From contig JAQBUF010000002.1 of assembly GCA_027623995.1 (NCBI GenBank), positions 24,714 through 88,713 of the forward strand: a stretch of DNA of 64,000 nucleotides, given 5' to 3'. This document shows positions 29,349 to 64,000 of the stretch, in pieces. Position 1 is the stretch's first letter; each line of letters starts with the position of its first letter. The position numbers and the translations under genes were made by a program. The notes beneath the pieces were generated by a model. It searched no databases and was not told the origin of the DNA. It saw only the letters and a program-made list of their open reading frames with translations. Source of the DNA: Nitrospirota bacterium (GTDB lineage: Bacteria; Nitrospirota; Nitrospiria; Nitrospirales; UBA8639).

Positions 29349-30359
29349 TTAGTTCTTCAATCGTTCTATCGTTAACGCTTCATCATTATTTTTTACCGTC
29401 GCCCGAATAAAGTCGCCGAATTTAAATTCTTCGGTCACCTTGGTCTTGTCGGTGCGTTCGACACGAATTTCACCATATTCCCCACGCAAGACATAGAACG
29501 CCCCATCAATCATGAGGATTTGCCCCTTCACCACTCGGGTATCGGACGGGAGTTTATTCGGCGCAGGATTGGTTTGTTGGGCGGCTTGCCCCTTTGCCCC
29601 TGCTGATTGCGCGAGTTCAGCCTTCACTTTGGCTGGGACTGTGCTCGAAGGTGCTTGCTGCATAGTGACTCCCGAGACCTCATTGGCACCGGCACGCTCA
29701 ATTTTCAACGCCTTATTGTTCATGAGGACGACAGCCTTGATCCGATCCCCAAATTCAAACTCCTCCGTGATCTCGGTTTTGTAGGTGGCTTCAATTTGGA
29801 TTTCACCATATTCACCACGAACGATGTACAGATCACGATCAATCATCAACAGATCACCGATAATGGTTTTTCGATCCGGTTGTTTGGGTGCTGGGGCTAA
29901 CCCTGGAGCAGCAGTTTTTGCTGTGCCTTTTTCTATTTTTTTTGCAGGAGAAGCCTTCGCAGCGACTATCGAATTCTCCACCACTCCCGCCACATCACCC
30001 GGCCCGGCACGTTCGATTTTCAGCGCCTTATTATTCATGAGAACAAGGGCTTTAATTCGATCCCCAAATTCGAACTCTTCGGTGATCTCAGTTTTGTAGG
30101 TCGCTTCAATTTGAATTTCGCCCAACTTGCCGCGCACGATGTAGAGATCGCGATCAATCATCAGGAGGTCACCCACAATCGTTTTTGTGGCCTGCTTCGC
30201 TGCACCTTCTTGGGCCAACACATTCTGGCTCTGCGCTAAGAGCATCACACATACGACGCTGAGTATTTTTACCACCGCGACAGATGCTTTCATTCCGCTA
30301 TCACCTCCTATGATTGGCACAGACACCTGTGCAACGTCCGTAATAGGGTCAGAATTCAA
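29349..30359 (-). CDS. Exported protein with three tandem ~65 aa repeat domains
   Basis: Signal-like MKASVAVVKILSVVCVMLLAQSQNVLAQ; three copies of 'xGDLLMIDRDLYIVRGxxGEIQIEATYKTEITEEFEFGDRIKAxVLMNNKALKIERAG'. Confidence 0.75.
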   Translation of the reverse strand: MNSDPITDVAQVSVPIIGGDSGMKASVAVVKILSVVCVMLLAQSQNVLAQEGAAKQATKTIVGDLLMIDRDLYIVRGKLGEIQIEATYKTEITEEFEFGDRIKALVLMNNKALKIERAGPGDVAGVVENSIVAAKASPAKKIEKGTAKTAAPGLAPAPKQPDRKTIIGDLLMIDRDLYIVRGEYGEIQIEATYKTEITEEFEFGDRIKAVVLMNNKALKIERAGANEVSGVTMQQAPSSTVPAKVKAELAQSAGAKGQAAQQTNPAPNKLPSDTRVVKGQILMIDGAFYVLRGEYGEIRVERTDKTKVTEEFKFGDFIRATVKNNDEALTIERLKN

Positions 30360-46595: not shown

Positions 46596-46926
46596 GTGCT
46601 AACGGCGGAGAAAGATGCAGTGGAATTCACAATGTTGGAAAACATTAGGGTAGCCGACACGGCCCAGTCGATGAAGGGTTTGGGGTAGATGCCTAGGAGG
46701 AGGGTGCCGGCGATGCCGATGTAGACGGCAGTTTTGAGGGGAACAGAGACGGTGATGGGGGTTGGGTCTGTGGGTTCGTTGATGTACATCTTTTTGACGA
46801 CGATGAGGTAGTAGTACATTGAGATGACGATGTTGATGAGGCCCACGATTAAGAGTGTGTAGAGTTCTTGTTCCATGGCGGCGACGAAGATATACAGCTT
46901 GCCAATGAAACCCGCGAGTAATGGGA
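46596..46926 (-). pseudogene. Duplicated 3' fragment of nuoN
   Basis: Near-identical to the nuoN 3' end at constant 1290 bp offset, including MEQELYTLLIVGLINIVISMYYYLIVVKKMYINEPTDPT. Confidence 0.9.
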
Positions 46927-46960
46927 CTCCCCAAAAAAAGGGGGAGGAGATATCAAACCT

Positions 46961-47362
46961 TTAGCCAGGAAAAATTGTGCGAACCACTTCTTGTACTCGC
47001 TTTGCTAACTCTAAAGCCTGTTCAGCATCGGAACGTTCAATGACTTCCCATTCTCCTGGATATCGCGTGACTGTCGCGTAATCCGTGAGTTTCACGCAAT
47101 CATCAACCGAAATTGGGAAACGAGTATTATCGGGAAGCAGTGCGACTAACTCCGTTAAGTCATGGGTTTTTGGAAAATCCAGTCCTTCGAACACCAACCA
47201 AGCTTTCAGAAGTTTCTCGACACATTGCTGTGCATGAAAACACACCGTGTCAAGCGGACAATCTTCTTGCAGGGTGAGTGTGTGTTCAGCATTTCTTAGA
47301 TCATTTCCTGCTTTTTTGATCCATTGCAGGCCGATTTCGGTTCGTTCAGGGTTTTTGTTCAT
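46961..47362 (-). CDS. HEPN domain protein (toxin of HEPN-MNT pair)
   Basis: WIKKAGNDLRNAEHTL...CFHAQQCVEKLLKAWLVFEGLDFPKTHDLTELV; RX4-6H-like RYPGEWE region. Confidence 0.9.
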   Translation of the reverse strand: MNKNPERTEIGLQWIKKAGNDLRNAEHTLTLQEDCPLDTVCFHAQQCVEKLLKAWLVFEGLDFPKTHDLTELVALLPDNTRFPISVDDCVKLTDYATVTRYPGEWEVIERSDAEQALELAKRVQEVVRTIFPG

Positions 47363-47678
47363 ACAGAACTTTTCCTTCGCCTAAGGCCGCGCGAATGATG
47401 GTTCCAGGGCATTCACGATAGCGTTCTATTTCCTGTGGGGTGACGACCACAATATCCTTTGGTAGTCCCATCCCGCTTAATGCTCGGCGAATCCCCAAAC
47501 GAACATTTCGCCTGTCCTCAGAACGTGCCATGACTACCAAAAAATCAACATCGCTATCTGGCCCCGCAGTACCACGAGCATAGGATCCAAATAAAATGAT
47601 CTGGACAGGGTTCCAAGTTTCAACAATACGCCGAACCATCTCTTCAATGAGAGTCGCGCTATCCAATAGTTTTTGCAT
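47346..47678 (-). CDS. MNT-type minimal nucleotidyltransferase (antitoxin of HEPN-MNT pair)
   Basis: IILFGSYARGTAGPDSDVDFLVVM (GSX10DXD). Confidence 0.92.
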   Translation of the reverse strand: MQKLLDSATLIEEMVRRIVETWNPVQIILFGSYARGTAGPDSDVDFLVVMARSEDRRNVRLGIRRALSGMGLPKDIVVVTPQEIERYRECPGTIIRAALGEGKVLYEQKP

Positions 47679-47869
47679 CCGCGGTTCCTAGGCCCTCCGA
47701 AAAACTTTTGGGCAGAATACTTCTACAGTTTGGCACCTCTGTTACCAGAATCCCCTTTGCTCCCAACTCTTTTCTCGAAAAGGAGAGGGAGAATCACAAG
47801 ATACAACTTTAAAGTGAAACCGTTCTATTATGGCAAATGAAAACTGAAAGGACAAAACTTATTGGCGTG

Positions 47870-49369
47870 CTATCCACCAACAAGGGGAGACAAGACAGGG
47901 GCTGCCGCAGTTGGAGCAACAAGATTGGAGAACATCAGCGTAGCGGAGACCGCCCAGTCGATGAAGGGTTTGGGGTAGATGCCGAGGAGGAGGGTTCCGG
48001 CGATGCCGATGTAGACGGCGGTTTTTAATGGAGCGGAGACGGTGATGGAGGTTGGGTCTGTGGGTTCGTTGATGTACATTTTTTTGACGACGATGAGGTA
48101 GTAGTACATGGAGATGACGATGTTGATGAGGCCCACGATTAAGAGTGTGTAGAGTTCTTGTTCCATGGCGGCGACGAAGATATAGAGTTTGCCAATGAAG
48201 CCAGCGAGGGGTGGCACTCCAGCTAACGACAGCAAAAAGAGTAGCATCGCCGCTGCCAGAAATGGCGAGCGCCGGTTGAGACCATTGTAGTCTTCGATCT
48301 CATCGCTTTTGATGAAGTTACTAACGCCGATCACCACTGCGAAGGCTCCAAGATTTGCGAACAGATACGTGAGCAAATAGAACAGAATGGCATCACTTCC
48401 ACGTTTGGTTCCTGCGGCCATCCCAATCATGACATTGCCAATTTGTGCGATTCCGGAATACGCGAGCAAGCGTTTAATGTTGGTCTGGGCAATGGCTACG
48501 ATGTTGCCATAGGTCATCGATGCAATCGACGCCACAACAAAGAGCAACACCCACATTGGCTTAAAGCTGGCGAGCGCCACAAAAAACATTCGAATAAGAA
48601 TAGCCAGCGCCGCGCCCTTCGGGGCAATGGAGAGAAACGCGGTGACGGGTGTGGGTGCGCCTTGGTAGGTATCGGGAATCCAAGAATGAAATGGTACGGC
48701 ACCAATTTTGAAACCGAGTGCAGCAAAAATCAGAATGAACCCAATCGCCAATCCATAGCTTCCTGGCGTCGAAGTCATCTCGGAGAATACCAACGTTCCA
48801 GTTTCGCCGTAGACTAAGCTGATTCCGTAGGCTAACAGGCCCGCCGCAAATACACCGAGAATGAAAAATTTTAATCCGGCTTCGCTGGACCGCGCATCTT
48901 CCCTGAGGTACGCGACCAGCACATAGAAGCCGAAAGTCGAAAACTCTAAGGTGACGAATACCGACAACAGATCTTGGGCCGAGGCCATAAACATCATGCC
49001 CAACGCCGACATCATGACGAGGAAATAATATTCGCCTTTGAAATATTTGAATTTCTTGACGTAGTCGATGGAGATCAACAAGACGAGCAGGGTGGCAATC
49101 AGGATGATGATTTTAAAAAATATCGCCACACCATCCAGGACATACATATCTTTGAAGAGAGAGCCATGGACGCCGATGTAATCAAACCAAATCACATTGA
49201 CGAGTGTTGTCAGGATGCCGCCAATAGAGAGGTAGGCGAGATTTTCATGATCAATATTCTTGACGGAAAAATCGACAATCAGCACCACACACATCCAGAT
49301 CGTGAGAAAAATCTCTGGTGCGAGGAGCAGGAGGTCTGAGCCAGTAAGTGTGAGATCGAACGTCATCAT
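47870..49369 (-). CDS. nuoN: NADH-quinone oxidoreductase subunit N
   Basis: Antiporter-like subunit, 499 aa; last subunit of the cluster. Confidence 0.93.
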   Translation of the reverse strand: MMTFDLTLTGSDLLLLAPEIFLTIWMCVVLIVDFSVKNIDHENLAYLSIGGILTTLVNVIWFDYIGVHGSLFKDMYVLDGVAIFFKIIILIATLLVLLISIDYVKKFKYFKGEYYFLVMMSALGMMFMASAQDLLSVFVTLEFSTFGFYVLVAYLREDARSSEAGLKFFILGVFAAGLLAYGISLVYGETGTLVFSEMTSTPGSYGLAIGFILIFAALGFKIGAVPFHSWIPDTYQGAPTPVTAFLSIAPKGAALAILIRMFFVALASFKPMWVLLFVVASIASMTYGNIVAIAQTNIKRLLAYSGIAQIGNVMIGMAAGTKRGSDAILFYLLTYLFANLGAFAVVIGVSNFIKSDEIEDYNGLNRRSPFLAAAMLLFLLSLAGVPPLAGFIGKLYIFVAAMEQELYTLLIVGLINIVISMYYYLIVVKKMYINEPTDPTSITVSAPLKTAVYIGIAGTLLLGIYPKPFIDWAVSATLMFSNLVAPTAAAPVLSPLVGG

Positions 49370-61775: not shown

Positions 61776-61887
61776 CGTTATGCGTGAAGCTGAATACGTG
61801 ATGCGTAATGCGTGAAGCGTGAAGCGTAAAAAAATTCGATTATGGTTCGTGCCTTTCGCATTACGCCTAACGGATCACGCTTCACGT
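61776..61887. repeat. Heptad-rich inverted repeat (family B) in nuoA-nuoB spacer
   Basis: cgttatgcgtgaagctgaatacgtgatgcgtaatgcgtgaagcgtgaagcgt ... cgcattacgcctaacggatcacgcttcacg. Confidence 0.8.
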
Positions 61888-61890
61888 CTC

Positions 61891-62355
61891 CTAGTCCCAT
61901 TCCAGAGCGCCTTTGCGCCAGGCGTATACATAGGCAACCACGAACAAGCCGATAAAAATCAGCATTTCTATCAGGCCAATGGCTCCAAGATCATGAAAGG
62001 TAATGGCCCAGGGGTAGAGAAAAATCACCTCAATATCGAAAATCACGAACATCATGGCGATGACATAATAGCGAACGGGAAACGGCATCCGTGAATCCGA
62101 GAACGGCTCGCTTCCACATTCATAGACACTTAATTTTTCGAATTCTGGGTATTTCGGTTGGACAAGATAACTCAAAGCCAGCGTGACCAAACCAAAGGCC
62201 AAGGCGATGATAATAAACAGTAGGATGGGAGAATAATTGTCTAAATAAGTCAGTAGAAGGTCATACCCACTCATGGTGACTTCCCCAAAAAGGCAAAAAA
62301 CATCAAATTTTCCGCAGGATTCGCCATCGTAGCACCTCGATTTTTGGCGAATCAA
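61891..62355 (-). CDS. nuoA: NADH-quinone oxidoreductase subunit A (start probably at MSGYDLLLTYLDNY)
   Basis: YECGSEPFSDSRMPFPVRYYVIAMMFVIFDIEVIFLYPWA. Confidence 0.95.
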   Translation of the reverse strand: MIRQKSRCYDGESCGKFDVFCLFGEVTMSGYDLLLTYLDNYSPILLFIIIALAFGLVTLALSYLVQPKYPEFEKLSVYECGSEPFSDSRMPFPVRYYVIAMMFVIFDIEVIFLYPWAITFHDLGAIGLIEMLIFIGLFVVAYVYAWRKGALEWD

Positions 62356-62517
62356 GAGAACATAAGACCTACCAAAATGCTATCAAAAGGCCCAACGCAA
62401 TAACACACTTGGGGTAGTTGGCCTCTTCACTTTTTTGGTTGGGAACTGCATGCCCTGGACCAAAGATAACGTAAAGCCTGGAGATAAAGAAAGGGAAAGC
62501 CCGCCAGTATACTGGTT

Positions 62518-62757
62518 CTATTTTTTCGGCATATCTTCGGGTGGCCTTTTCAAGCCCTCGGGAGGTGAGTCTTGTGAATTTTCCCATTCATCGGTCAACG
62601 GATACACCGCCTTGGCCTTACTCCGTCGGTGGATTTGGGTTTGAATGCGGCGAGGAGAGGGGGAAGGGGGGGAGTCTTGTGACTTGTCCAGTCGGGGTTT
62701 TGGGGGAGGAGGGCTGCTCATATAATGATGGTAGCCTATGGCTGGTGAAAGCAACAA
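62518..62757 (-). CDS. Hypothetical proline-rich small protein
   Basis: 79 aa Pro/Lys/Ser-rich ORF; competing ORFs on other strand. Confidence 0.25.
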   Translation of the reverse strand: MLLSPAIGYHHYMSSPPPPKPRLDKSQDSPPSPSPRRIQTQIHRRSKAKAVYPLTDEWENSQDSPPEGLKRPPEDMPKK

Positions 62758-62766
62758 GGGAATTTA

Positions 62767-62934
62767 TGCAGGGTTTCGCCCCTGCAGACGAGGTCCTTTT
62801 GTTTCGGCAAAAGGACCCAAAACCATGTCCGCCCGTCTGCGGCCCCAAGGGGGTCCCTCCGCCTACGCCCCGAATACCATGGCGAGAGAACTCGCTGCGC
62901 TCAAACAGCTCTCGCCGAACAGTCGATTCGGGGC
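62767..62934. repeat. Multi-hairpin structured element adjoining avd
   Basis: tgcaggg-tttcgc-ccctgca (62767-62786); ggtccttttg-tttcgg-caaaaggacc (62792-62817); gccccgaat...attcggggc (62867-62934) enclosing ggcgagag...ctctcgcc (62881-62916). Confidence 0.7.
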
Positions 62935-63236
62935 TACGGCTCCGCCGCATCCAAAGGCGGGAAATACTTAAGAAGTATATCTAGAAAAGGAAGCGTCCCC
63001 CTTTTTAACAGCACCTGGAACGCTTCCAACCTCTCCCGCAGGTCATGAAGCACCGGCAGCTTGTCGGGCCGGGAATTGGCGCGAATAATCAGCGTCACCA
63101 GTTCTCGGCTCTGCTGCCGCAAGTCACTCCCCAGCGTGTACTTGTGATAGCGACTAAAATTGCGCACGACTTGCTCGACATACACCGTCAAATCCATCGC
63201 CGCTTTATAGATTGGCAAATGTTCGTAGCGGGCCAT
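62934..63236 (-). CDS. Avd-like four-helix-bundle protein (DGR accessory), apparently C-terminally truncated
   Basis: MARYEHLPIYKAAMDLTVYVEQVVRNFSRYHKYTLGSDLRQQSRELVTLIIRANSRPDKLPVLHDLRERLEAFQVLL. Confidence 0.82.
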   Translation of the reverse strand: MARYEHLPIYKAAMDLTVYVEQVVRNFSRYHKYTLGSDLRQQSRELVTLIIRANSRPDKLPVLHDLRERLEAFQVLLKRGTLPFLDILLKYFPPLDAAEP

Positions 63237-63302
63237 AATCTTCCTTCAGGATGAAGAGCCCCCCATCGGGGGGGCCCGACAACAATTGCTTTCGCGTCGC
63301 GA

Positions 63303-63324
63303 GCAGGGGGCAAACGCCCCCTGC
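63303..63324. other. Perfect GC hairpin/cruciform candidate between variable region and avd
   Basis: GCAGGGGGC-AAAC-GCCCCCTGC, 9 bp stem, 4 nt loop. Confidence 0.8.
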
Positions 63325-63381
63325 ACCCCCTAAATGACCAAATCACTCAAATCATCAAAGGCCCAAGGCATCACAGGGCCA

Positions 63382-64000
63382 CTAGTAGTCTGACAAGGGA
63401 CCCCCACCGCGGACACACCAGACGAAGAGGGCGCTCGCCTTATTGCCGGCGCTCACGTTGCCATTGCTGAAGCTCACGCGCCACGCATCCGCGGGAGTCT
63501 CAACATTCGTCGCCGCCGACCAATAGCTGCCCGACTGGACGTTGCTAAACGGATGGCCAGCCGGCAGATCGGGACCACCAGCCGGATTTCCAGGAACTAC
63601 CAGACTCGTCAGCTCGTGGATCGACGGCAAGCGCCAGCCCATCTGCCCGCCGGTCCCGCGCCGGATGCACTGAAAGCGCGCTGACGACCACGTCTCCGTG
63701 GTCGTCAGCGGGGACTGCTCCCACGTTAGGCCGGTATTTTTATCCAAGACGCCCTCACCCGCGGGAGTCCCCCGCAGTGGGCAGGACCCGCACAAACCGC
63801 TCCGCCGCCGGCAGGTTCTGATCCCACCGCAGCGTGTGATTGCCCTCCGCGCCCACGCCCCCCCCCGTTGGCAGATTGTCCACGGTCGTCTGTAACGTCG
63901 TGAGCTGGTCTTTGACCATGTCGGTTTGATCCTTGAGCATGTTCAGCTTGCCGTCCAGCTCCTCATGATCCTGCTGTAAGTCCTTCGTGCTCACATGGTT
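63382..64000 (-). pseudogene. DGR variable protein with DUF1566/Lcl C-type-lectin-like domain; apparent single-base frameshift, upstream end outside window or at GTG ~63994
   Basis: Frame 1 ...GNHTLRWDQNLPAAERFV..., frame 2 GEGVLDKNTGLTWEQSPLTTTETW...GWRLPSIHELTSL...SGSYWSAATNVETPADAWRVSFSNGNVSAGNKASALFVWCVRGG. Confidence 0.78.

Follow-up and report, generated by a model that had tools for sequence, protein, structure and literature searches.

A probable remnant of a diversity-generating retroelement beside the nuo genes of a Nitrospirales bacterium

The 64-kb window analysed here (G000:C86:24714-88713, whose right end is the end of contig C86) contains what is probably a decayed and now inactive diversity-generating retroelement (DGR) cassette, which in this Nitrospirales bacterium adjoins the respiratory nuo genes. 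Its assembly, G000, comprises 110 contigs and is 99.7% complete. The remnant consists of a variable protein (VP) gene with its variable region (VR), a hairpin and a stump of the accessory gene avd, arranged in DGR order; core parts are missing or broken, and relatives are complete. We infer both the present inactivity and the order of events. The initial annotation had proposed either a truncated DGR or a remote target served in trans by a reverse transcriptase (RT) elsewhere. Our analysis supports this pair of readings and favours truncation, because avd is cut short, the VP reading frame is shifted and a dispersed repeat marks the point where the locus has been fused to the nuo region. DGR target remnants are already known, and the window is another case. 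In Treponema denticola isolates, target genes remain without the core components, RT and template repeat (TR) (PMC4891356), and all3226 of Nostoc/Anabaena is a target paralog with remnant TR-VR homology and no proximal RT (PMC7517822). The window resembles both in bearing a VR-containing target after RT and TR loss, but differs in that it keeps an avd stump and in that its junction at a dispersed repeat is resolved.

The VP gene lies on the minus strand and is split by a frameshift at about 63765-63775, upstream of its Lcl_C domain (PF07603, formerly DUF1566). A profile search places this C-terminal domain at 63382-63795 (E 2.6e-24) in the shifted frame, while the N-terminal part with its coiled-coil-like linker (63755-64000) occupies another frame, which is open at the contig end and reaches a stop after the frameshift. 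The DUF1566 similarity claimed earlier for a 63382-64000 product therefore stands, but not for a single frame of that extent. The gene start lies beyond the end of contig C86 and is thus absent from it. The first 71 bp of the 63755-64000 part are identical to a stretch of a second copy on contig C71, where the frame starts with a signal-peptide-like stretch. By comparison, the homolog in G004 has a single reading frame across the equivalent of 63765-63775, and an error of sequencing or assembly could account for the frameshift. A third Lcl_C match in the genome, on contig C82, was set aside as a diverged protein without a neighbouring avd.

The copy on contig C71 (L008) forms a second cassette, with an in-frame TAG in the linker of its VP and an avd gene that runs off the contig end at residue 64. 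Comparison of the two cassettes provides the main evidence for past DGR activity. The window VR (63403-63543, minus strand; 47 codons, NVQ...VRGG) and the C71 VR show 39 differences over 47 ungapped codons, distributed 18/14/7 over codon positions 1/2/3, whereas the two avd genes show 22 differences over 64 codons, distributed 4/1/17 (Fisher p=7.7e-6 for the two patterns). The avd pattern is what ordinary divergence under purifying selection would yield, and the VR pattern is what mutagenesis of AAY-type template codons would yield. When the TRs of intact relatives serve as proxies for the missing TR of the locus itself, the VR differences are enriched at template adenines, with 28 of 46 A columns affected as against 11 of 95 others for the L159 TR (p=2.5e-9), and with p=4.4e-7 and 8.6e-6 for the TRs of L164 and L166, respectively. 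The VRs of other Nitrospirales copies also show TR-adenine enrichment, but third-position differences are more frequent in them. VR diversity, to which the initial annotation had drawn attention, is visible between the window and C71 as VR-type mutagenesis, and past adenine-specific mutagenesis of the VR is well supported.

Two candidate cis elements follow the VR on the minus strand: an AT-rich element with a period of about 8 nt, 3' of the VR stop codon (63331-63360) and common to related DGR targets, and a perfect hairpin with a 9-bp stem and a 4-nt loop (63303-63324), a candidate target-site hairpin similar to that of Bordetella phage BPP-1. Hairpins with a 9-bp stem follow the VR at C86, C71 and G031. 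BPP-1, with the order mtd-avd-TR-brt, requires a target hairpin 4-34 bp from the VR (PMC3240598). The window shares with it the VP-then-avd order, the VR at the VP C-terminus and a short GC-rich hairpin with a 4-nt loop downstream of the VR, and the C71 loop, GAGA, fits the GRNA form. However, the distance from the VR end to the window hairpin is 78 nt, outside the range of 4-34, the C86 loop, GTTT, does not fit GRNA, and, compared with BPP-1, TR and RT are missing, avd is truncated and the VP gene is frameshifted. As for the AT-rich element, ATTTG-type units with a period of about 8 nt occur after the VR stop codon in most DGR targets of the clade. Under hand-chosen classes and a motif defined on the same data, the mean number of units is 3.3 for 15 VRs from cassettes that are complete or partly complete and 2.1 for 8 remnants in Nitrospirales; it is 0.4 both downstream of 7 TRs and downstream of 5 Lcl_C genes belonging to an avd-less array in G025. 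An ATTTGRTN-like form is found 3' of the VR stop in L168, L169, L166, L006, L008 and others, and not after TRs. This periodicity offers a lead, and only a lead, to a candidate target-site signal. As a signal specific to DGRs on its own, the octamer-like element was rejected: it is preceded by a readable VR-like end in just one (L179) of 24 matching viral-contig loci, and tandem octamers of a similar kind are found elsewhere too. A search of 61800-64000 against Rfam gave nothing at gathering thresholds.

The open reading frame at 62934-63236 (minus strand), annotated earlier as an Avd-like gene, does encode Avd, although only over residues 1-78 (63003-63236). Its product matches the NCBIfam DivGenRetAVD model with E 7.8e-10 and Pfam bAvd with E 1.8e-7; these values are far beyond chance, although the bit scores do not reach the curated cut-offs, which fits a protein that has been truncated. 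The match to 23S_rRNA_IVP, in contrast, has E 0.009 and falls under that family's cut-off, which identifies the product as Avd rather than a member of the 23S IVS four-helix family. In nearly all comparisons the alignments end at residue 77-80, and one weaker alignment extends further, with gaps. The best relative among annotated phages, the 'Avd protein of DGR' of Burkholderia phage Magia, likewise aligns to residues 1-78. The frame is open for 100 codons, the last 22 of which (62934-63002) are non-Avd filler followed by the start of a dispersed repeat; a full-length Avd was not found at the window locus.

These matches bear on whether the locus is a DGR derivative at all. Many Lcl_C genes of the family occur without an avd, among them the tandem arrays of diverged Lcl_C genes in G025 (L076 2876-7503, L077 2798-6992) and G014 (L078), near which no avd was found and whose genomes yielded no DGR RT. 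One could therefore regard the locus as no more than a common Lcl_C paralog that adjoins a four-helix protein of the 23S IVP type. We consider this extremely improbable, since the Avd models fit far better than the IVP model, the same avd family adjoins TR and RT elsewhere, and the VR codon-position signature and the TR-adenine enrichment contradict it.

Between the avd stump and the nuo upstream region lies a dispersed repeat, about 200 bp long (62755-62963, minus strand). At least 47 places in the genome match it, with 40 of 129 candidates scored, and 29 copies gave a sharp consensus. G001, a genome of the same genus, can be aligned with the window upstream of nuoA as far as 62757, beyond which the two diverge, so that the breakpoint coincides with the repeat edge; in the region examined upstream of nuoA in G001, no VP, avd or RT match was found. 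Neither the 3' end of avd nor a TR or RT is present on the far side of the repeat, and the junction therefore points to a probable rearrangement or deletion at the repeat rather than a simple insertion, a mechanism that we infer. Copies of the repeat (for example L098-L127) contain several hairpin-forming segments, often form inverted neighbouring pairs and often lie at contig ends, and reading frames similar to it are also present in same-family genomes (L010, L011, L013, L017). Elsewhere in the window, 46617-48206 and 29413-30186 contain long direct repeats (300 nt at 91% identity, with a spacing of about 315-333 nt).

Neither an RT nor a TR was found within the 64-kb window, which confirms the earlier statements that it has no RT or VR-like repeat and that nuoA follows avd in minus-strand reading order. 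The genome-wide checks that were proposed alongside extend this result to the assembled genome, from which both are absent. An RVT_1 search of the assembly returned one match, on contig C22, which was rejected as a DGR RT because it is a fragment of a group II intron RT (TIGR04416 E 6.2e-22) and lies at the edge of its contig. Two DGR RT queries, which do recover DGR RTs from other genomes, gave no match in this one. The 23-base 3' end of the VR occurs only in the two VRs of C86 and C71, even at 3 mismatches, and the VR as a whole recovers from the genome only itself, the C71 VR and chance-level short matches. Since the genome yielded neither RT nor TR, the VR is expected to be frozen today. 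An intact copy in missing or unbinned DNA is possible, because contigs C86 and C71 break off within the VP gene and within avd, respectively, and the bin has no contig that continues them.

Complete counterparts of the locus exist outside the order. The same Avd family is found at full length in other orders of Nitrospirota and in a Deltaproteobacteria MAG (L016), and several of the relative loci have A-biased TR/VR pairs, most with an adjacent RT. In L162, 18 of 18 and 20 of 20 TR/VR mismatches fall at template A. Those relatives' RTs whose motif 4 was read have GNLTSQ, and the SQ motif is typical of DGR RTs (PMC3521204). As far as the avd stump, the parts in the window follow the order of the intact relatives. 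VP-avd-TR-RT is the order on two IMG/VR phage contigs, L095 and L097. These two and the loci L159, L161, L162, L168 and L169 from other Nitrospirota orders resemble the window in VP domain, Avd family and order, with an Avd identity of 44-65% over the stump between the window and the complete relatives; unlike the window, which has neither TR nor RT, the complete Lcl_C/Avd relatives have a full-length avd, an A-rich TR and mostly an RT. At L167 (G377:C29, 2566-4385) a full-length avd, a TR and two VPs with A-only mismatches are present, and no RT match was found in the 9 kb examined; this locus possibly lost its RT by deletion. At L163 (G387:C34, 5532-5888) the full-length avd is an orphan: neither a VP nor an RT was matched within about 5 kb of it, and G387 yielded no RT of this type. 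Same-family genomes also contain A-biased TR/VR DGRs (L068, L070, L071) with a GGSWNN...-like target resembling formylglycine-generating enzyme. These were rejected as partners of the locus, as their VRs are not Lcl_C-like and their genomes gave no match to this avd.

Within Nitrospirales, every recovered copy of this avd type is broken or cut by a contig end. The avd sequence ends at residue 78 in C86, 64 in C71 (contig end), about 60 in G031, about 28 in G045, about 23-32 in G044, about 24-28 in G261, 36 in both copies of G305 and about 45, with a stop, in G411. Weak full-length-like matches in G089 and G344 (E about 4e-4 to 6e-4) resemble other four-helix proteins and were left out of this count. 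Outside the order a few truncated or broken copies also occur (G102, G140, G197, G327). In G411 an RT pseudogene with internal stops lies shortly 3' of avd, and no TR was detected; as judged from these remains, it would be an intermediate stage of decay. The two cassettes of G305 share an identical truncated avd segment and have strongly different VRs.

This pattern is relevant to two further explanations. A truncated Avd-like protein could have been kept, together with the Lcl_C domain, for a new role unrelated to mutagenesis, as the open frame of 100 codons and the mostly synonymous evolution of the avd part would allow. This is very unlikely, since truncation points that differ from genome to genome (about 23 to 78 residues) are not those of a conserved shortened protein, and purifying selection can predate truncation. 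The other explanation, the remote target served in trans, would make C86 and perhaps C71 satellites with passenger avd fragments, the intact avd-TR-RT being unassembled, unbinned or phage-borne. The cut of C71 inside avd without continuation, the retained hairpin and post-VR element, the long purifying selection on avd, the G305 cassettes and the complete relatives on phage contigs all speak for it. However, no RT of this type was found in G000, G031, G044, G261 or G305, G045 has a weak partial match and G411 only the pseudogene, and both VP copies in the genome are interrupted, one by the frameshift and one by the TAG. In addition, the spacer and avd start of the G305 cassettes differ too, so that gene conversion could explain their mosaic. 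We therefore regard service in trans as rather unlikely, and it is more doubtful still that the avd-stump targets of Nitrospirales as a whole are dispersed satellites still being diversified by an RT on unbinned mobile or phage DNA.

Under the preferred reading of a decayed cassette, the ancestor would have been a VP(VR)-hairpin-avd-TR-RT element whose adenine-specific mutagenic retrohoming diversified an Lcl_C protein. TR, RT and the 3' end of avd would then have been lost in a deletion or rearrangement with one end at the dispersed repeat, which brought what was left of avd next to the region upstream of nuo; the VP gene would also have acquired its frameshift. A point against this reading is that Avd of C86 and C71 diverged under purifying selection, so that either the loss was recent or the activity was long-lasting. 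On this reading, DGR decay can be followed in place at the locus, where the mutational scars, the accessory stump and the junction can all still be read. Such loci escape surveys that take the RT as their starting point; where two VRs are available, testing their differences by codon position can reveal them even if the TR is missing. Our analysis also suggests that, in a phylum rich in intact Lcl_C/Avd DGRs, one order retains this type only as fragments.
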